64,000 nt of DNA, from contig OY783197.1 of assembly GCA_963678675.1 (NCBI GenBank), forward strand, positions 10,846,304 to 10,910,303. The letters run 5' to 3'. The stretch comes from Xiphydria camelus. Taxonomy: Eukaryota; Arthropoda; Insecta; Hymenoptera; Xiphydriidae. The notes below the pieces were generated by a model. It saw only the letters and a list, made by a program, of their open reading frames with translations, was not told the DNA's origin and made no database searches. Below are positions 14,810-55,217 of the stretch, one piece after another. Every line of letters starts with the position of its first letter. The first letter of the stretch is position 1. The position numbers and the translations under genes were made by a program.

Positions 14810-16894
14810 AATTGTATTTGAGAATTATTGTTGGGAGTCACTTCAAAAAGTTCAATAATAGAACTATCAGTAGGATATACTGTAAATGATGTTCGGCTAA
14901 CAAGTCGGGCTTTTATAAAAATATTATCTGACGAAAGAGAGAGAGAGAGAGAAATATTTCGTCAAATAAAACTATTCTGCTGTCTTTTAAAATTACGCAG
15001 TTGTCGCCGGTTTTAATAGAAAATATTGTATCTCTACAAAGCAATTTTTGGTAAAACTTGATATCATTATTTGTTTTTAGTAAGTTCCCAGTTACCTGAA
15101 TAGTATTGGTATTATGGTCTGTTAAAGAAACAGTCATCTCTTTTCCTTCATAGATTCTATGAATAACTTGCTGCAAACATTGATTTGGTTTTCTAAGCAT
15201 GTGTTTTAAAAACCCAAGGTAATTTTCAAAAACAAAGCAACTTATGTCAACCAGAGTGTTAAATTTTGCGGAGTCATCAGGTAAATGAATGAGCGAATGG
15301 ACGTTATAAATGCAAAACTCTTTTCCATAAATCATTGCTGAATGGGAAACAAATAGTTTTAATAAATCTTTAGCGTATGTATTATAATCTGAATTAAACC
15401 TGGGATTAAGAAGTATAGTTATAGCAAATTTCAACAGCATTAAATTAGAAAAGATATGTGTGGGTAAAATATCTTTAAGTAGTTGACTGATGTACAATAG
15501 AAATTGCCTATATTCCGTAGCTTTCCAATGCTCTAATTCCTTTATTGACCGTGGTTTTCTATTGAAATCATTAGGCCAATATTTCTTTATAACAAATCTA
15601 TTCTTTCTTCAAAAATTGTTAGTTTGTCAGGAGAGAACCTAAAGAGCCTACTGCCATCTCGCCATAAAAACAAAAGTTTACGCATAACACCGAGACAAAC
15701 GCAATGCATATAATCTATGGGAAATAATGATATCAAGCCTACCCCTAAATCGCTCAAAGGTGTAGGGCCTCTTGAAAAATCTGGGTATTGCCCTGCAGAA
15801 AATCCTTCATCAGTTCTTAGTGGACTGTTTAAGTTTAAAAAAACCATTCTCCTATTGATGTATTCTCCTGGTGCACAACATCTATCACAGCCATTATATC
15901 CATTATGATTTTTCGTAGATCTTATGAACGCACGCGCAGGAGAATCACAACAAAAGGATCGACATACAATATTAACTTTTGTGCCTTCAAAGACGACACC
16001 ATTAAATAAATAATCTTTTAACTCTTTTACAAACTCATTGAAAAAAACATTTATTAGAGGTTTATTAGTTCCACAGTATATGGCCACTGGAAACGGACAT
16101 TTACGCTTGAAATCATGTACCCTGCATAGAATTGGCCAAAATTATGTCTTTGTGCTTTTATGTAGTGGTAGTCCATCAATGTTAAAATCTAAATGATAAG
16201 TATGTAATGATTTGTGACTATATTTTTTATATAGTTTTTCCAGTCCATAAAATATTCCAAAATAATAAAATTGCCCATCTCCCATTAATGAAACATCCTT
16301 TCTCCGTGGCGTACTTAATAAAGTTCTAGCATTTAATGGTAAATTTGCTATATTCGGGCATGTAGAAAACCAGCCCAACAACTCATTGATGGCTGTATGG
16401 CTTATATTGTTTTTAAGAGCCCATTGTCTGAGAAAAGTTGCGGAGGGTTTTGGTTCGACTGATGGTTCGGTCTGTTTTGGGACGTCGTAGACGACATCGG
16501 AGGGAAGGATATTTTCTTCATCAGCAAAATTATATTCCGAGAGACCATCATGAAATTCTAAACGTGAACTTTCATCGGAATTAAAGCTATCATCAAGGTT
16601 ATTGTTGTTAATTAATGTCGTTAAATTATTGTCTTGATTACGAGTTTCATCTATGAAAACGTCCAAGGGTTTATCCGAACAAGGTTTATCTCTTTGACAT
16701 TTCTGATATTGAGAATAACGGGATTTATCCAGGTACGAACAAGAGGGTACGCCAGTATTAAATTCTGATGATAATTTATCAGAAATATCAGGATTAGTCG
16801 TATTCGTGGAACATTCTTTTAAAATAGTTTCCACAGTTTCATTAAGAACACGCCTTCTATGCCTTGAACTTAGTTTACGGGGCTGGTGGTACAT
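14810..16894 (-). pseudogene. Tnp2-type (EnSpm/CACTA-like) transposase, broken
   Basis: The start is chosen at the ATG at 16894, giving MYHQPRKLSSRHRRRV, the usual basic N-terminus of this insect family; a splice acceptor lies just upstream. Recognisable blocks in order: LPLNARTLLSTPR, NIDGLPLHKS, FWPILCRVHDF, the zinc-type CDRCCAPGEY, IDYMHCVCLGVMRKLL, EHWKATEYRQFLLY, YNVHSLIHL, FVFENYLGFLKHMLRKP. Breaks: an in-frame TAA at 16144-16142, a frameshift near 15600 and another in a GA/CT microsatellite at 14938-14951, after which the frame resumes to about 14810. Length (~690 codons) suits the family. Dead copy. Confidence 0.8.
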
Positions 16895-17459
16895 GCTGAA
16901 TTTCCACTTGGATAAATAAACACACACTACACCCTAAAAATTAATAAAAGAATGTCATAAACTTCCAGTAAACACTATAGACCTTTTATAATAAAATGGA
17001 ACGGACAGGATAGTTGAAGTCTTAGGCCCAACGCCCACGTGCGACTGTTTTTAGACAAAGATTGCAAACATGTTCACTCTACAATCAGTTTGTACTTACT
17101 TCGTGCCGAATTTTTCCATACTTTTCACTGGAAACTACTGTGCAAACTGGCGAAACTGGGCACACATCGACACATAAATGCCATAAACAAATTCAAAACT
17201 GAAAATGGCTAAAAATGCGTCGTCTCAGAGCCGTGTCTGTGGTTTGGAACTCGTTGTGAGGTTATAACACGTGACGCCTGACGCCATACTGGTTGGCAGC
17301 GAGCCGCGCATGCTCAAATACTTGCGTCGGCTGAATGGGGTGTTTCCGTTACTGGCAAGACGGTAAAGTTTACATGACGAGCAGATGATGATATACCAAC
17401 GTAACCCCATTGCTGGGCAACTTATGCTATAAATGCGATGGTTTTGTTACATAGAACCA

Positions 17460-30227: not shown

Positions 30228-31135
30228 CTACCCATATAAAAACCACCTGGATACCACGGACAAAACTGGATACTTCTTCGTGTACCTACTCACATCTTTG
30301 ACCTGTACCAGTGGTTCCTCCAAAACTTCCAACAGCATGACATCTCCCGGTGCATGTGGATCATCTACTATTAAAGGTTGAGGAAGTCGGCTTAAATTGT
30401 CTGCGTTTGCGTCTAATTTCTCGGGCTTATATTCGAAGTCATATTCGTAGCTCACCAGCTGTAGACACTGATGAAAAAGTATCGGGGGTATCACCGTCGG
30501 AATTAGCTTATCCGGTCGCAATATTCATAACAGCGGCTCGTGGTCAGTGATTATTGTTACTTTTCTCCCAGCTACGTACTGGTGGAAATGCTTCACTACA
30601 AAGATAATGGAAAGTAGCATTGTAAAACCGTTCCCACATCATATGAAGATGCATCGCATGACAAAATGAGCTGTTCATCCTGCCTGTAATGTATACACAC
30701 AGTGTCTGTTTGCAGCAACTCCTTCAGTTTCTCAAAAGTTTTAGAGTGCCGTTTCGCCCATTTCCGTTTTGCATTTTTTTTCAACAGTCTGAAAAGCGGC
30801 TCGGCCTCCGTTGCTTTGTTCGGTAAGAAATGATTGTAGAAGTTAATCAGGCCGAGAAAGGACTGCAGTTTTGCTTTGCTTTTTGGCTCCAGTGCCGATT
30901 TAACTTCCTCTGCATTTATTTTGAAACCAATGAACTCTATTTCCGATGCTGTTAAAATGATTTTATCCTTTCGGACAGTGAGTTCGTATCCGCTCAGGCT
31001 CTGCAAGACTTGAGTCAGCCTTTCCCTGTGCTCTTCGTGCGTGCGCCCTATTATGCAGATATCGCCCTGGAAGGATATGACGCCCTTGATGTCTCTTATC
31101 ACGTCCTCCATTAGTCGCTGGAGGATGCTTTCACT
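30228..31135 (-). pseudogene. Gypsy reverse transcriptase C-terminus and RNase H
   Basis: LMEDVIRDIKGVISFQGDICI holds the catalytic box; the usual YxDD reads FQGD, so one catalytic Asp is lost. KSKAKLQSFLGLINFYNHF is the thumb; LSCDASSYDVGTVL is the RNase H start with its first Asp. YEYDFEYKPEKLDANADNLS near 30390 is the RNase H end. A break lies at 30520-30600. Confidence 0.85.
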
Positions 31136-43090: not shown

Positions 43091-43285
43091 TTAATATCTT
43101 CATTCTAAGACGTTATACAAAGTGAACGCACCATGTGCGAGACCAAAGCATCAAGCCGGCCACAGAGACTCGTGATTTTTCATCGGTCATCGGTGATCGT
43201 GATAAGCCATCGTGACAAAACCGAAGTGTGTGGGGCATAAAGTGTCCCGATGGCTATCTGGCGATGCTTGATTTTCTTCGCGACG

Positions 43286-45030
43286 CACAGTGCTTCATCC
43301 AGTGGACAAAAATCAGATTGTTACTTACGCGATATAGAAAAACTAATTCGTTGAAATCATAAAGTAATGTCCCTTATACCCACACCTATCCGTTTTTGAT
43401 CAACTGAACTACCGTTGCCATGCAAATAAATAAAGAAAGACGCGTCACAGCGTAAACATTCTCGTCTCAACAGAATTACGAACTTCTTTTTAGACATTAT
43501 TTAAATGTGTATGTAATCTACAAGATAAGGGGATTTTTATTCACTTTATATAAATAAGAAAAGGGTTGACATATCGAAAAAAATATTCGTAAAACTTATA
43601 TTTCTTGTTTTTACAAAAATGATTGCGGAGACTAATTCTCAAAAAGTTCCAAAAACCTCCTTTTAAGCTTAGCATTTTATTAAAGCTTGTACATTCCTCT
43701 TAATACCTACGTATCGTTTTATTTGCTCAGGGCTGCTCAAACCAAACTATAAATATTTTCGTTATGAGGGAGCGAAACGCCCGAATGACGAATTCTATTT
43801 GTTGTCACTAAGTCTCAAATACGAGGTTGACGGGGTTCGAGGCTGGGTGTTGGGGGGCTCGAGCTCCCAACACTTTGCCTCTCGAACCTCGTCAACCTCG
43901 TATTTGACACTTAGTGACAAAAAATAGAATTCGTCATTCGGGCGTTCATAACGAAAATATCTATAGTTTGGTTTGAGCAGCCCTAAGCAAATAAAACGAT
44001 ATATAGATATTAAGAGGAATGTACAAGCTTTAATAAAATACTAAACTGAAAAGGAGGTTTTTGGAATTTTTTGAGAAATAGCCTCCTCAATCATATGTGT
44101 AAAAACATAAGAAATATATAAGTTTTACAAATATTTTTTTTCGGTATGTCAACCTTTTCCTTATTTATATAAAGTGAGCCCCCAAACACCCCGCCTCGAA
44201 CCCCGTCAACCTCATATTTGAAACTTAGTGACAAAAAATAGAATTCGTCATTCGGGCGTTTCGCGCCCTCATAACGAAATTATCTATAGTTTGTGGTTTG
44301 AGCAGCCCTGAGCAAATAAAACGATATATAGGTATTAAGAGAAATGTACAAGCTTTAATAAAATACTAAACTGAAAAGGAGGTTTTTGGAATTTTTTGAG
44401 AAATAGCCTCCGCAATCATATATGTAAAAACATAAGAAATATAAGTTTTACGAATATTTCTTTCGGTATGTCAACCTTTTTCTTATTTATATAAAGTTAA
44501 TAAAAATACACTTACCTTGTAGATTATATACACATTTAAAGTCCCCCCCCTCCATTACAAAAAAAATCATAAGCATTTTTTAAAGTAAAAAGAAATAAAT
44601 AAACAAACAAACAAAGAACTTTAGAACAAAATTTAAATGTTTATTATTTTGAATTTTGTCAAATATAACTTCATATTCGTAATCAACGACCCAACAAATC
44701 CCCCTATACCAAATTTGGCATCTATCCGTTGATTTTCGAAAATCTCGTCCGCCATATTGGATCCGTCATCTTGAATTTTTGAAATCTGACTTCAGATTCG
44801 TGATCAGCGACCCAAAAAAACCCCCTATACCAAATTTAGCATGAATTCGTCGATTTTCGAAAATCTCGTCCGCCATATTGGATCCGCCATCTTGAATTTT
44901 TGAAATCTGACTTCAGATTCGTGATGAGCGATCCAAAAAACCTCCTTAACAATCATTTATTTACTGTTTCATTAACCGTCAAGAGAAATTTCTATTTTTG
45001 TCCACTCTCCCATATAACTGAAGCACTGTG
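43286..45030. mobile_element. Transib-like non-autonomous element with unequal RSS-like ends (13/22)
   Basis: Perfect CGACG duplication (43281-43285, 45031-45035). Left end: CACAGTG (43286-43292), 13-bp spacer, ACAAAAATC (43306-43314). Right end, minus: CACAGTG (45030-45024), 22-bp spacer, ACAAAAATA (45001-44993). Both spacers begin CTTCA and end GTGG. Interior: one inverted and two tandem copies of a ~340 bp unit (43497-44541) and a ~117 bp satellite (44660-44930). No transposase. Confidence 0.8.
44660..44935. repeat. ~117-bp satellite at Transib-type 3' end
   Basis: About 2.3 copies of a unit with CCGCCATATTGGATCC and GATTCGTGATCAGCGACCC. The same core, diverged, lies next to the 3' ends of the two RAG1-like elements (49690-49790, 50520-50960). 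Confidence 0.8.
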
Positions 45031-45035
45031 CGACG

Positions 45036-46890: not shown

Positions 46891-48995
46891 ATGGCCCGGT
46901 CTGAACGAATGCAATGTCTTATCAATCATTTGGTAAGATACGATGGAATAAAAGATGATGAGAATGCAGTATCTCGTTTGAAGTTAATAACGTCCCGTTT
47001 CTGTTCAAAACTCTTTAACAAGCTTGATGGTTGTTGCAAAAAAGCTGAGTTATTTTTAAAGAAAAATGAGGAATGGCTTAACGCTGTGGAAACAACATTT
47101 AACGAAGTACTACAACCGCACTCAAGTACTCCGAGGGAAGGACGAAAAAGTCGTGGCCGTCCAAGTTTGAAGTTTGCAGAAAGCAGCGAGAGAACAAAAT
47201 GGCGAAAGAGTGAAAAGCTTGCAGAAAAGTATGAAGCGGAAGAACTTACTGCAGCTGCAGCTAGAAGCCTCAAAGAAAAAGGAAAAGAAGTTACGGCAAA
47301 GCTTGTATCAGAAGCACTTTTAACTACTCCATCTCGAGCCTCCAAAATAAGAGAAGCTTATGAAACTTATCAGAAACAAAAAGAAGTTATTCCCCTTACA
47401 CACACACACACCTGATCAAGGTCTTTCGGTGATGATAGAAGCCAAAGATAGTAAGCATTCTTACTTAATCCATAGGCAAGCTGCCAAGGCGCAGAAAATG
47501 CCGATATTTACCCGTCATACCATAAAATTCTGGAAGCAAAGAGCGTTGTGTTACCCGCAAAAAAAAGGTCAGATTGTTACAGAAACTTCGGCTGAAATAC
47601 TGATGCAGGATCCACTAGATCACACAGTTGGGCGTATTTTAGAAACTCAAGAATCTGTTCTTTTTATAATTTCCGCTGATATGCCCAAGAATATGATGTT
47701 ATTAGTAAAGTGAGGTTTTGATGGAAGCTCGGGGCATTCCCAATACAAACAATTGATTACTGAAGCAGGCCTTGGCGAGGGCGATTTATTTTTGTCCTCG
47801 TTAGTCCCAATACAACTTTTTATTGAGAAATCTGGAGTAGAAAAGTTAATTATATGGCAAAACCCCCGCCCATCGTCTACTCGTTTCTGCAGGCCAATAA
47901 TGTTTCAATTCAAAAAAGAAACCAAATAATTGATAAAAGTGGAAATAAAATATATAAACGAGCAAATAAGCAAACTTGGGCCAACAATATATTTATTTGG
48001 AAATGAAGAAATTGTCGTTTCTTATACATGCACAATGTCGATGATAGATGGGGTAAAGTATGCAATGCCATTACAGAAACATCGTCAGCGCAAATCTGCT
48101 ACATATGTCATGCAAGCCCTAAAGAAATTAATGATATTGAAGGCTTTTTAAAGAAAAAAATTAATGTTGGCACTTTGAATTTTGGCTTATCCAGTTTACA
48201 TGCTTGGATACGATTTTTTGAATGCCTATTACATATTTCGTATAGACTAGAATTGAAAACTTGGCAAGTTCATGGAAAAAAGAATAAAATAATTTTTGAG
48301 GAGAAGAATAGGGAAATCCAACGAAACTTCAGGGAAAGAATAGGTTTGCTTGTAGATGTACCAAAGCCTGGGGGAAGTGGTACTACAAACGACGGAAATA
48401 CGGCGAGGAGATTTTCTTCTAATTCGTCATTATCGGCATCTATTACGGGTATAGATGAACAAGTTATTAGAAGATTTGGGGTGGTATTAAATACCATATC
48501 TTGTGGATATGCTGTTAATGTGGATGCATTTAGCGAATATGCCTTAAACATCACTAAATTATTTGTGGAAAAGTATCCGTGGTACTTTATGCCCGCAACC
48601 GTCCACAAAATGTTGATACATGGAGCAGCAATTATTAAAGAGGCCATATTACCAATTGGGCAATTGTCCGAAGAAGCTTAAGAGTCAAGAAATACAGATT
48701 TAAAGAAGTTCCGGAAAAGCAACACAAGAAAAACTTCCCGTGTTTTAGGAAACCAAGACCTACTTAACAGATTATTGATTACCTCTGATCCCTTCACCTC
48801 TTCCCTACGTAAGTTACCCCCAAGAAAAATTCTTTTATCTCTGCTGACGTTCTGGTATTGTTAGAAGAACACCAACAAGTACCACCACAAGAACTTGAGA
48901 TTCCTGAGTCACCGGTTAGTAGTCTAAATGAAGCTAGTGACGATTCTTCATCTGACGACGCAGACAGTGACAGCGACCTAGAGTTTGAAGAATAA
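46891..48995 (+). pseudogene. RAG1-like (Transib) transposase, copy 1, broken
   Basis: Start at MARSERMQ is by alignment with the copy at 53446-51182; upstream exons are unclear. Blocks: GRPSLKFAESSERTKWRK, TTPSRASKIREAYE, GFDGSSGHSQYKQ (first Asp), PRPSSTRFCRP, MIDG (second Asp), CYICHASP (C-x2-C), SSLHAWIRFFECLLH, NDGNTARRF, TVHKMLIH (H-x4-H), LPIGQLSEEA. Acidic C-tail. Breaks: frameshift in a CA repeat (47396-47412), TGA replacing Trp at 47711, TAA near 47926, frameshift near 48045, TAA at 48679 removing the catalytic Glu context, frameshift near 48830. Confidence 0.82.
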
Positions 48996-50466: not shown

Positions 50467-50519
50467 CGATGCACAGTGGGGCCAAAGACCGGTTTACTTG
50501 GCCAAAATTCGAAAAGTGT

Positions 50520-50960
50520 ATTAATCGAGGTGAAATTGAGTACTTAGGGGTTTTTGGGGTCGCTGATTACGAATCCAAAGTCGAAAGTTTGAAAAACAAT
50601 ATGGCGGATCAAATATGGCGGAAAGGTATCTCAAAAATTGATAGAATCTGTGTGAAATTGAGTACTCGGAGGTTTTTGGGGTCGCTGATTACGAATCCAA
50701 AGTCGAAAGTTTGAAAAACAATATGGCGGATCAAATATGGCGGAACGGTAGCTCAAAAATTGATTGAATCTGTGTGAAATTGAGTACTCGGGGGTTTTTA
50801 GGATCGCTGATTACGAATCCAAAGTCGAAAGTTCAAAAAACAATATGGCGGATCAAATATGGCGGAAAGGTATCTCAAAAATGGATCGAATCTGTGTGAA
50901 ATTGAGTACTCGGGGGTTTTTGGGGTCGCTGATTACGAATCCGAAGTCGAAATTTCAATA
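50520..50960. repeat. ~121-bp tandem satellite, four copies
   Basis: Unit with GGTCGCTGATTACGAATCC, AATATGGCGGATC and TGAAATTGAGTACTCGGGGG. Lies directly inside the 3' end of Transib copy 2. The frames of 71-84 codons over it are repeat translations. Confidence 0.88.
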
Positions 50961-51181
50961 TCCGCGTTCCCCTCCTTAACTTATCGTAGATGATAAACAT
51001 AAATATATTTTTAAGAATTGATAGCATGTTAAAATGGTGGTACAGGGTGATAAATTAAATATTACTAATTGTGTTTAGACTTGCTAAAATGTTAAAAAAA
51101 AACACGAGGTTTGAGGTTTTCTGTGGGTGTATTTATGAAACAAAACTTATTTATCAAATAGGTAGGTACTACAAATCGTGA

Positions 51182-53446
51182 CTAATTCTCATCTGAATCT
51201 TCGGAGTCAGATGTGTTGTCACTTTCGGTTTCTGTTTGTTCTTCATCCTCCGTGTATTGTTGCGTTAGATCAGGTTCCTCTAAAAGATCTGTAACTGATT
51301 TGCTTAACGTAGATCTTTTTGGACTAATTTCCGTGAAGATGTTATTAATGGGTCTGACACTAATAAATGATTGAAGACGTCACGCATTGTTTGTTCACGC
51401 GAAAATTTTCTTGAGTGTCCCTCTCTATATTTCCGAATGTCTTTATTGCGAGCTTCCTGCGCTTCTTCGCTAAGTTGACCAATAGGAAGAATAGCTGACT
51501 TAATAACTTCAGGGCCGTGAATCAATATCTTATGCACTGTTGTGGGCATGGGATATCATGGATATAGGTTAACATATAACTGTGGGGTTTCTCGACAGTG
51601 AGCTTTGCATTTGTCAATGTTAATTTTATAACCACTAGCCATAACCTGTACAATCACTTTAGATTTAATTATTAATTGCGCATCAATGCCTGTTATAGTC
51701 GATGACAGTTCAGAATTTTGAAAAAATCTTCGTGCTGTGTTCCCATCATTACTGCTTCCGAATCCAGGTTTTGGCTTGTCCACTACCAATCCCATTTTAT
51801 TTTTAAATTCGGCTTGAATTTTCTTTTTAGTTTCAAGAACTATAGTTTTGTCCTGTTCGCTTCTACTTTGCCATTTCTTTATTGGCAACTTGTATGCCAA
51901 GTGCAATAACACTCAAGAAAGCGGATCCAAACATGGAGCGTAGATAAACCAAATTTGAAATTGGTTTCATCAACGGTTCTTGCATATACCAAATTAAGGT
52001 TGTTAAAGTCTTTGGATGTAGCTTTACACAGATAGCATCTCAAGGTAGATGTTGTTTCAGTAGCTGCATTGCAGACTTTACCATCAGTCATTGTAAAATG
52101 TAGTGAATGCTTGATTTCAAAAGTACCATTATTTAATTCATAGGGAGTGTTCACAAGATTTTCAATTTGTTTTCCTATATATGTCACTTCTGCTTTGGTC
52201 ACTTCTGTTGTCTCGTGAATGAATTGTAACCGTAGAGGACGACAGAATCGAGGTGAAGACGGACGAGGGTTTTTCCAAATGATCTTCCCATTTTCAGTCA
52301 ACAGCTGCAAAGGCACCAATGATGTTAGGAAGACATTACTATCTGATTGCGATTCTTTTGCGAATTTTTGCTTATATTCACTGTGGCCTGCACTGCCATC
52401 ACATCCCCATTTTGATATTAATGTTAATAGTTGTGGTTGTGCGTCTTGTTTACGTAAACTTGAGAGGACTTCTTCTTGCAAAAACATGATTCTTGTTGCG
52501 GTATGGTTTAATAACGCTTGCAATGATACCTCCGCTTTATCTTCTGTTACCATTATGTTTTCTGGGTAACATTCCTTTTTAGCCCTTTGTAATGTTTTGT
52601 ACAGAGGATACTTGTCTTCAGCTAATTCTCTTATTAAATTATATTGATGCCTTGTCAGTTTTGCTTCAATAAAAACAGACAAAGCTTTATTGGACGCCAC
52701 CTTATCATCTGCAGTCTGTTGAAAGAATCTGTAGGCTTTCTTATATTTTGAAGCTCATGTCGGAGTTGTAGTTAATACTTCCTTAATAACTGAAGCTGCA
52801 TCTCTTTTACCTTCCGTCCAAAGCCTCACACCAGCTGCAAATGCTAATTCTTCTGTAGGCACACTTGTTCTTAAAGTTTCTGTCTTTCGGCGTTTTGACC
52901 GTTCACTGCTTCCATGAAATGGAACTTCAGGTCGGCCACGATGTGTTGGTTGAATTTGTCGTACAAGCACTATGGTTTTCTGTAGCCACTCTTGATTGGT
53001 CCGTTGCAGTCTGTCCTTCTTTCGTTGAGCTTTATTCCATCTCGTAATAAATTGGTGTCTGAATATGGAGAAAACAGCACAAACCGACTTCTCTTGTATT
53101 TTTGAACAATGGAATGTTTCCACAAGATGGTCCCTTAAACGGTTGCACTTGTCAGAAATAGATGTATCATCAAATCCCAGTAATATATTAACGAGATCCA
53201 TGTTGGAATATAAAAGGGATTGATCGCCAGATCCTAAAAAGAAAGATATAGGTACCATTGAAATACAATTGTGAATGAAGGGTTTTTTTTATATAAGGTA
53301 CAAATGATAACGAATATTCAAAAAAAATTACACTGTAATTCGGCTTAGAACCTAACTAAAAATGTTAAGAATTATTTTCTAAAACTACATTATTATCAAA
53401 TGTATTATATGACTTAAAACCACTTACTACCAGGTATAGAATCCAT
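51182..53446 (-). pseudogene. RAG1-like (Transib) transposase, copy 2
   Basis: Exon 1 (53446-53428, MDSIPG...) ends at GTAAGT; exon 2 starts 53233 after TTTCTTTTTAG. Key residues by comparison with RAG1: WGCDGSAG (Asp600 equivalent), TMTDGK (Asp708; 16 residues before CYLC versus 19 in RAG1), CYLC (zinc pair), NDGNTARRFF, TVHKILIHGPEVI (the two zinc His, H-x4-H), GQLSEEAQEARNK (Glu962). All are present. Breaks: CGA-to-TGA at about 52755, a one-base deletion near 51905, TGG-to-TGA near 51558 and a frameshift near 51330. Acidic tail ends at 51182. Confidence 0.88.
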
Positions 53447-53449
53447 GTT

Positions 53450-53945
53450 AACCCATTTGCATCCAAGCGCGGAATATTCCACGAGCCGCGACTGCACTGT
53501 TAACCTCTTAGGCACGGCTGAATTTTTCGCGGTGCTGTTTCTCTGTACGGCAGAGTTCAACGCGTTCTGAACTGAGAATGACTACGAGAACGTTTTCTCG
53601 AAGAAAGGACTTTTCGAAAATGTTTATGATTACAAATTCCCAAGAACGGTACAATCAAGGCGGCCGGGCCGGCCGGTTGTTCTCTCCAGATGTGTCCAAA
53701 GCTTTCCTACCCCGAACGCATGCATTCCTGCAGTTTATTGCCACGTCCCTACTCATACTTTTAGGCTGGTCAATGCAAACTCAAAACGTTCGTTGTACAT
53801 TACCAAAATGTTCTTACATTATATTACAACGAAGTGCATAATTTGGTATTTTTACCAAGATTTGAAGAAGCCAGCAAATAAGTAATTCTATTATTATCTA
53901 TACTTATAGTAATATTCCCGTATATGAAGATGTTCAGTGTGTATA
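53450..53945. other. 5' region of Transib copy 2, GC-rich patch
   Basis: Contains TTAACCTCTTAGGCACGGC (53499) and a GGCCGGGCCGGCCGG patch. An 87-codon plus frame has no recognisable motif. May be another insertion. Confidence 0.3.
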
Positions 53946-53949
53946 TTAA

Positions 53950-54247
53950 CCCTTTCGCTCACGGTGTCCACAAATGTGGACATGTAGATTAATGTATATA
54001 TAAGGTCATAAATTAGAATTTTTACCGTTTGTTCACAAGAAGTACATTCGTGGACATTGTAACGAATGTATAAGACATATATAGCCATACAAATTAAAAA
54101 TTAAATTTATAAATAAACAAAAAAAATTAAATTTATGAAAAAAAAATTTTTTTTTTATCAGAAAAATTAAAATTTAAAGCATCGAACAGCTGGAATATAC
54201 ATTATCAATTATATAGCTGTAAAAATAAAAATTCGTGAGTGAAAGGG
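53950..54247. mobile_element. piggyBac-like MITE
   Basis: CCCTTTCGCTCACGG and CCCTTTCACTCACGA (inverted), TTAA at 53946-53949 and 54248-54251. Contains paired GTCCACAAATGTGGAC / GTCCACGAATGTAC words. Non-coding. Confidence 0.8.
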
Positions 54248-54251
54248 TTAA

Positions 54252-55127
54252 GAAGATCAGTGTATTCTAAACAAGTTTTAATTTCTTTGTGAAAATCTTG
54301 AGTAAGTGTTGTCAATCTGTGTTTAAATTTAACAAATCCAGGTTTTAAAAACCATCTAATTTTGTTTTTTAAACTAAAATTTAGTTTAATTTAACATTGA
54401 AAAGTAGTTTGACATGTTATCATTTCAATATTTGTCGAAGGAAGTGTAAAAACAACGCTAATCTCCTCATTTGAACTTAACCAGCGTAAGTCGCATTTGC
54501 TGTCGACAAATTTTTAAATAAATAATTTTTAAATAAATAATAAAATAACTATAAAACTTCGGAATAATTCATTGCAGATGTTTCCTGTAAAAAATGTCCG
54601 AAAACCGCCTTCATTTCTAAGCTATCACACTAGAGTCCCAATTTAATCTTTAATAATTAATATTTTCAATTGGCGCAAATATGCGCAGACTTTTCTTGAA
54701 CATTCTCAAGAACCGTCCCCTTTATTACCAAAATACATTAAAACCTTAGCTTAATAGCGCTTAGAACCTAACTTTCATCCTACATATTTATAACGATATG
54801 TGAAACGTTTACTCAATATTTAACCACTTGTTGCACATGTTCCGATTTTCAAATTTGCCATATGAAATTATAGAAAGTATAGGTAAAGCCTCCATAACAA
54901 AATTAACTACTAATTACCACTACTACTAATTACAATTTTTTTTTACCACCACTTTCTTTGCTTCCTAAATATACTGCGACGAAGAGTCTATAAATTATAC
55001 AACTTTCGATTAATCTGACAAAGAGTGACGCGCTTCCCCCGCCTTTTTCTTAACGGCATATAATGCAGGAGACTCTAAACTACAGTCTCCAAGAAAAGTA
55101 ATTACATTTTTGCAATTTTTAATTTTT
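54252..55127. other. AT-rich 5' untranslated part of Transib copy 2
   Basis: No gene or repeat recognised between the MITE and the right RSS-like end. Confidence 0.4.
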
Positions 55128-55217
55128 GGATTTTGGCCAGCTATTCCTGCATTTGGCCCCACTGTGCGATGGCGGGATTAACTCTAGATTAGTGCTTTAC
55201 TTAAATCGCGATGATAA

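Follow-up and report, generated by a model that had tools for sequence, protein, structure and literature searches.

By its sequence, the element at positions 43,286–45,030 of the window, i.e. the whole stretch of 64,000 nucleotides of Xiphydria camelus contig OY783197.1 analysed here, is a recent copy, among many, of a non-autonomous Transib family, designated family I. Its ends resemble recombination signal sequences (RSS) and carry spacers of unequal length, 13 bp at the left and 22 bp at the right end. Judging from the copies read, this inequality is an inherited trait of the family, with 13 bp on the side that lies 5' of the gene in transposase-bearing relatives and mostly 22–23 bp on the opposite side. 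We consider it rather probable (roughly 0.68) that the element is mobilised in trans and that its 13/22 spacers act as a working mate pair analogous to the 12/23 pair of antibody-gene recombination; use of the asymmetry by the enzyme is what we infer from these sequences.

Ends and copies of family I

Both ends of the window element have the outer block CACAGTGCTTCA and the inner block GTGGACAAAAAT in common, and the stretch between the two blocks measures 4 bp at one end and 13 bp at the other. All that a first-pass annotation had described at these ends is present in the sequence: a CGACG duplication, CACAGTG on both sides, 13- and 22-bp spacers, and nonamer-like blocks with 8/9 and 7/9 matches when ACAAAAATC and ACAAAAATA are scored against the RSS nonamer ACAAAAACC (Table 1). 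Its designation as a non-autonomous Transib relative is likewise sustained, because the window's list of open reading frames (ORFs) contains none of at least 150 amino acids lying wholly within 43,286–45,030 and because the ends are common to transposase-bearing elements. Inward-facing CACAGTG pairs, 0.3–8 kb apart and with identical 5-bp flanks, occur twice in the window (43,286–45,030; 50,472–55,166) and in none of 200 first-order Markov windows.

Table 1. Positions of Transib features in the window (TSD, target-site duplication)
Feature	Position	Strand	Remarks
Left TSD CGACG, 5 bp	43281..43285	.	read from sequence; fits family target consensus CGNCG
Non-autonomous Transib, family I, 1,745 bp	43286..45030	+	short end is the left one
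Left heptamer CACAGTG	43286..43292	+	read from sequence
Left spacer CTTCATCCAGTGG, 13 bp	43293..43305	+	read from sequence
Left nonamer-like block ACAAAAATC	43306..43314	+	8/9 to RSS nonamer
Internal fold-back region	43500..44540	.	four main arm pairs, 113–180 nt, 88–93% complementary
Two tandem subterminal repeats	44655..44896	+	121 bp each, 88% alike
Right nonamer-like block ACAAAAATA	44993..45001	-	7/9 to RSS nonamer
Right spacer CTTCAGTTATATGGGAGAGTGG, 22 bp	45002..45023	-	read from sequence
Right heptamer CACAGTG	45024..45030	-	read from sequence
Right TSD CGACG, 5 bp	45031..45035	.	read from sequence
Second Transib	50472..55166	-	symmetric 23/23; TSD CGATG; transposase in broken pieces

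The genome that contains the window (357 Mb, 38 contigs) was searched with the end pattern CACAGTGCTTCN{4,25}GTGGACAAAAAT, which permits spacers of 12–33 bp and requires exact outer and inner blocks; copies with a mutated heptamer or inner block therefore fall outside the counts. Seventy-three exact ends were found, versus none for the pattern read backwards. They comprise 46 short and 27 long ends, arranged in 25 short/long pairs and 23 single ends. All pairs were read (24 fetched copies and that of the window), and each shows a perfect 5-bp TSD and a left spacer of 13 bp, the right spacer being 22 bp long in 24 copies and 26 bp in one (L016). The duplications follow the consensus CGNCG, whose four fixed letters C, G, C and G are present in 19, 19, 22 and 22 of the 25 copies, respectively. 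Seven of the 16 single-end stretches that were fetched turned out to be complete family-I elements, again with a left spacer of 13 bp throughout; their right spacers measure 22 bp in six cases and 23 bp in L040, and their TSDs are perfect except in L047 (four of five letters). In L034, the left inner block carries a single change. The two ends were not both found in the nine other fetched stretches (L033, L037, L038, L039, L041, L042, L044, L045 and L046).

Complete copies thus number 32, with spacers of 13/22 (30 copies), 13/23 (one) and 13/26 (one), which places the family in the 12/23 type with a tolerance of ±1 bp. The resemblance to a 12/23 end pair that had been noticed in a single element is accordingly a property of the family. 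It had been suggested that further copies be tabulated, since equal spacers elsewhere would mean a private 9-bp deletion in the window copy. This origin is now exceedingly improbable, and we reject it: the spacers are unequal in 25/25 paired and 7/7 further complete copies, and no point in its favour was found. As to the independence of insertions, L012 and L014 have an upstream flank in common and may not be independent, and the flanks of L026 and L029 fall in one and the same repeat.

Family I usually takes a form of about 2,069 bp, in which the longest ORF of the reference copy (L018) has 141 codons; the window copy has one internal repeat unit of about 324 bp fewer. ORF lists of six copies showed no transposase. 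When 16 copies of 2,060–2,080 bp were compared with their own consensus, 13 differed by 0–0.34% and three by 1.75–1.89%, and the family therefore moved recently. One copy, L010, harbours a nested element with a mariner-like ORF of 231 amino acids, identified by eye.

Transposase-bearing relatives and a second asymmetric family

An intact Transib transposase ORF of 670 amino acids is flanked by family-I ends in L040 (match to 6pqn, E 5e-109), and pieces of a transposase are present in L047 and L048. In these relatives the short (left) end lies on the 5' side of the gene. Beside the transposase, no ORF longer than 147 amino acids is found in L040 (1700–5100), L047 (1–5800) or L048 (1500–4900), no RAG2 profile search having been made. 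For the Transib ORFs, Pfam gave no match exceeding the cut-offs. A 5-bp GC-rich TSD, RSS-like ends starting with CAC and a RAG1-like transposase in relatives together mark family I as a member of the Transib superfamily. That the RSS resemblance is due to chance, or that the element belongs to another superfamily, is hardly credible even though the nonamer match is partial (7–8/9): chance is ruled out by the 73 versus 0 control ends and the 2 versus 0 Markov-window pairs, and another superfamily by the CGNCG duplications and the HzTransib-like transposase in elements with the same ends.

A second asymmetric family, H, is represented by a 2,907-bp element (L055:892–3798) with a 635-amino-acid ORF and the TSD CGCCG, which was read for this copy alone. 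Its spacers, ATTCCAAAGCGG (12 bp) and ATTCGGCTCCCATGCTAAAGCGG (23 bp), are exactly of 12/23 length, and its inner block AAAGCGGCCATAAAT is kept at both ends. The corresponding pattern matched 21 ends (control 0), which form ten short/long pairs and one single long end; all ten pairs are exactly 12/23, have the 12-bp end on the 5' side of the gene and enclose a transposase match from the protein search. The L055 element is a cleaner 12/23 case than the window element.

The transposases of families I and H are 36% identical and are separated in the tree by a branch with 100/100 support. The nearest relative of H is the symmetric family B (support 93/78), and R is the sole other family of this genome within the clade of I. 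With eight symmetric families coded, two changes are needed on the tree, and the approximately unbiased (AU) test rejects the union of I with H in a single clade (p 9e-76, for a grouping chosen after the tree was seen). A shared origin of these two families thus finds no support, though they may also go back to an older asymmetric ancestor with subsequent losses. A transposase difference between asymmetric (GRPR) and symmetric (GRPK) families does not hold, as the symmetric family K also has GRPR.

Symmetric families, long/long pairs and the strictness of pairing

The protein search for Transib places yielded 622 candidates, of which 150 were scored, and ten further Transib kinds were read at both ends, each with perfect TSDs. 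Nine end types are symmetric: those of the second Transib of the window and of families C and W are 23/23, and those of B, D, F, G, K and T are 22/22. Spacers were set by a script rule for the window's second Transib, D, T and W; in B, C, F, G and K their limits were fixed visually before counting, the script rule having failed for K. The left heptamers of T (CACTGTG) and W (CACATAG) deviate. Not all nine types are independent because the ends of C and of the second window Transib are 86–91% alike. Families E, M, O and R were excluded from the symmetry count; within the stretches read, E, O and R gave no end pair, and M has weak ends only (CACAGTG at both, TSD CGACA). The putative family J (L059) is the same as G. 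In most families the spacer closes with GG before an A-rich block (GTGG, GCGG, TTGG, CTGG, CCGG), and the inner signal may therefore exceed a nonamer.

Broader patterns extended the picture for lineage I. The short-end pattern gave 122 ends versus 6 in the reversed control, several 13-bp variants being among them, and the long-end pattern gave 140 (control 0); 100 matches of each were listed. One variant, L069:101–2281, has the TSD CGCTG and the spacers TTTCCTCCCGTGG (13 bp) and TTCCCCGGTATATGAGAGAGTGG (23 bp); with an interior mostly dissimilar to family I, it represents a diverged 13/23 subfamily with altered spacer letters. Only the left end of the CTTTATCCAGTGG variant (L068) was found. 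When the 62 short ends listed for lineage I were matched by coordinate to the 100 long ends listed, 46 pairs resulted, namely 21 of 13/22, 18 of 13/23, one of 13/26, five of 22/22 and one of 23/24. Among the matches listed, 40/46 pairs are thus short/long, 6/46 long/long and 0/46 short/short. The five 22/22 pairs (C1:20951776–20955007, C1:21832465–21834458, C6:22588507–22590692, C17:18681648–18682699 and C17:18766338–18767509), which face inward and are known from coordinates alone, have CACAGTG and GTGGACAAAAA in common and are absent from the best 40 of 1,085 candidate relatives of the window's right end. They may constitute another symmetric family, or they may be derived from family I and long at either end, a state that would oppose a strict rule. 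In the 23/24 pair at C1:14277226, the 24-bp end carries a left-type TCCAGTGG tail and extra bases, and its partner measures 23 bp. An 11-bp spacer, CACAGTGTAATTCCTGGGCCAAAAA, occurs at C6:11110380, C10:17598875, C17:14367879 and C20:9135486 and possibly belongs to a separate family.

These counts bear on a full rule of the 12/23 type, under which a RAG2-free transposase would demand one short and one long end and so prevent like ends of separate copies from being paired in a genome where Transib places number in the hundreds. The predominance of short/long pairs and the absence of short/short pairs among the matches listed are in line with such a rule, as are the spacings of about one versus two helical turns in two lineages and the better performance of ProtoRAG with asymmetric ends (PMC8289069). 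It is at odds with the six long/long pairs among the matches listed, with the symmetric families of the same genome, and with the statement in PMC8355894 that RAG1 alone does not prefer 12/23 over 12/12. We therefore regard a strict rule as unlikely. Similarly doubtful is the broader proposition that RAG2-less Transib transposases enforce a 12/23-like mate rule which either originated or persisted separately in two lineages of this genome (13/22–23 and exactly 12/23).

Possible function of the unequal ends and relation to known systems

We propose that family-I copies move by cut and paste, presumably with the hairpin-forming chemistry of the Transib kind, and that the window copy would be mobilised in trans by an L040-like, RAG1-like transposase encoded in longer relatives that share its ends. 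A transposase dimer is predicted to place its catalytic core on the heptamer and its N-terminal GRP-motif region on the inner block GTGGACAAAAAT. It would accept a pair in which these sites are about one helical turn apart at one end and about two at the other, so that 13/22 could function as a mate pair in the manner of 12/23.

Several observations weigh against this proposal. In nine end types that possess an A-rich inner block the two spacers are equally long, and asymmetry is therefore not needed by Transib in general. Because of their recent common ancestry, the 32 unequal copies cannot be counted as so many independent tests. The 26-bp right spacer of L016, combined with a perfect TSD, indicates a spacer length that can vary, unless the insertion is of later date, and the six long/long pairs among the matches listed count against strict pairing. 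The GRP motif cannot explain the asymmetry because symmetric families possess it too. Finally, the fold comparison of the transposase model covers residues from about 154 onwards and hardly any of the N-terminal region, which it therefore does not align with the RAG1 nonamer-binding domain.

The asymmetry might instead be neutral. In that case one end of an ancestor was shortened or lengthened by about 9–11 bp, the enzyme reads mainly the outer 12–16 bp or so, and the copies inherit the difference. The symmetry of the majority of end types read in this genome, the near-identity of family-I copies through recent descent and the presence of long ends of 21, 22, 23, 24 and 26 bp in the genome listing are all compatible with this, and most Transib families are described as symmetric, HzTransib ends showing little or no nonamer similarity (PMC8289069). 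Yet families I and H each retain their inner block (GTGGACAAAAAT and AAAGCGGCCATAAAT, respectively) at either end, with the preceding stretch differing, the L069 subfamily keeps the 13-bp length despite changed letters, and asymmetry with the short end on the 5' side is found in two separate lineages. Neutral inheritance is thus conceivable, if on the unlikely side, and a working 13/22 mate pair remains our preferred interpretation.

Unequal Transib ends as such are already known. In PMC8355894, where spacers are described as 12 or 23 ± 1 bp, asymmetric 12/23 ends are recorded for Transib5 of D. melanogaster and for Transib2, TransibN1, N2 and N3 of A. gambiae, and PMC9435367 assigns both asymmetric and symmetric terminal inverted repeats to Subgroup II Transibs. 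The statement in the first-pass annotation that known Transib ends are of the 23 type must hence be corrected, and a short-spacer partner is notable as uncommon but not as new. Like family I, the five recorded elements have a heptamer, a nonamer-like block and spacers near 12 and 23 bp. Compared with them by description, the present genome differs in having 13/22–13/23 spacers plus an exact 12/23 family, and in bringing together numerous recent copies, an intact transposase and Transibs with symmetric ends. The listing of asymmetric Transibs reportedly goes back to Kapitonov and Jurka (2005). What is new is a well-populated family, of use mainly as a test system. Within the limits of titles and abstract openings, the Transib literature searched contained no spacer survey within one genome.

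The transposase of L040 is like that of HzTransib (Helicoverpa zea, PDB 6pqn series) in sequence and, as modelled, in fold, whereas HzTransib ends are reported (PMC8289069) to be symmetric with little or no nonamer similarity. The likeness to the 12RSS and 23RSS of vertebrate RAG1 comprises the consensus heptamer CACAGTG, the 7–8/9 nonamer, a short and a long spacer, a catalytic fold that the model suggests to be related, and a GC-rich 5-bp target. By contrast, Transib has no RAG2 (for this and the target, see PMC11844651), and family I is 13/22 rather than 12/23 and a transposon rather than a set of antigen-receptor segments. AanRAGL of Aureococcus and amphioxus ProtoRAG also combine two shared blocks with unequal spacers. 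The 4/13 bp of AanRAGL equal the family-I numbers provided that the blocks are delimited as CACAGTGCTTCA and GTGGACAAAAAT (PMC9435367); ProtoRAG has a 27/31 spacing (PMC8289069), and RAGL elements differ in carrying RAG2-like genes.

Families I and H bear on the origin of the 12/23 rule of antibody genes. According to PMC8355894, asymmetry is recognised only by RAG1 complexed with RAG2. In one genome, recently active 13/22–23 and 12/23 Transibs and intact transposases occur beside symmetric relatives that serve as natural controls, and the RAG2 dependence of the rule thereby becomes testable. If a mate rule does operate in RAG2-less Transibs, RAG2 would not have been required for the 12/23 rule to start.

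Elsewhere in the window, a degenerate Transib transposase occupies 46,891–48,681 (+), of which 48,028–48,681 matches HzTransib at 1e-60; no ends were found for it. Within the second Transib, the ORF at 51,879–52,700 (−) matches HzTransib at 2e-54. A retroelement fragment with reverse transcriptase and RNase H lies at 30,596–31,111 (−), and three ORFs of one element, one of them with a weak DUF4218 match under the cut-off, are located at 14,913–16,927 (−).
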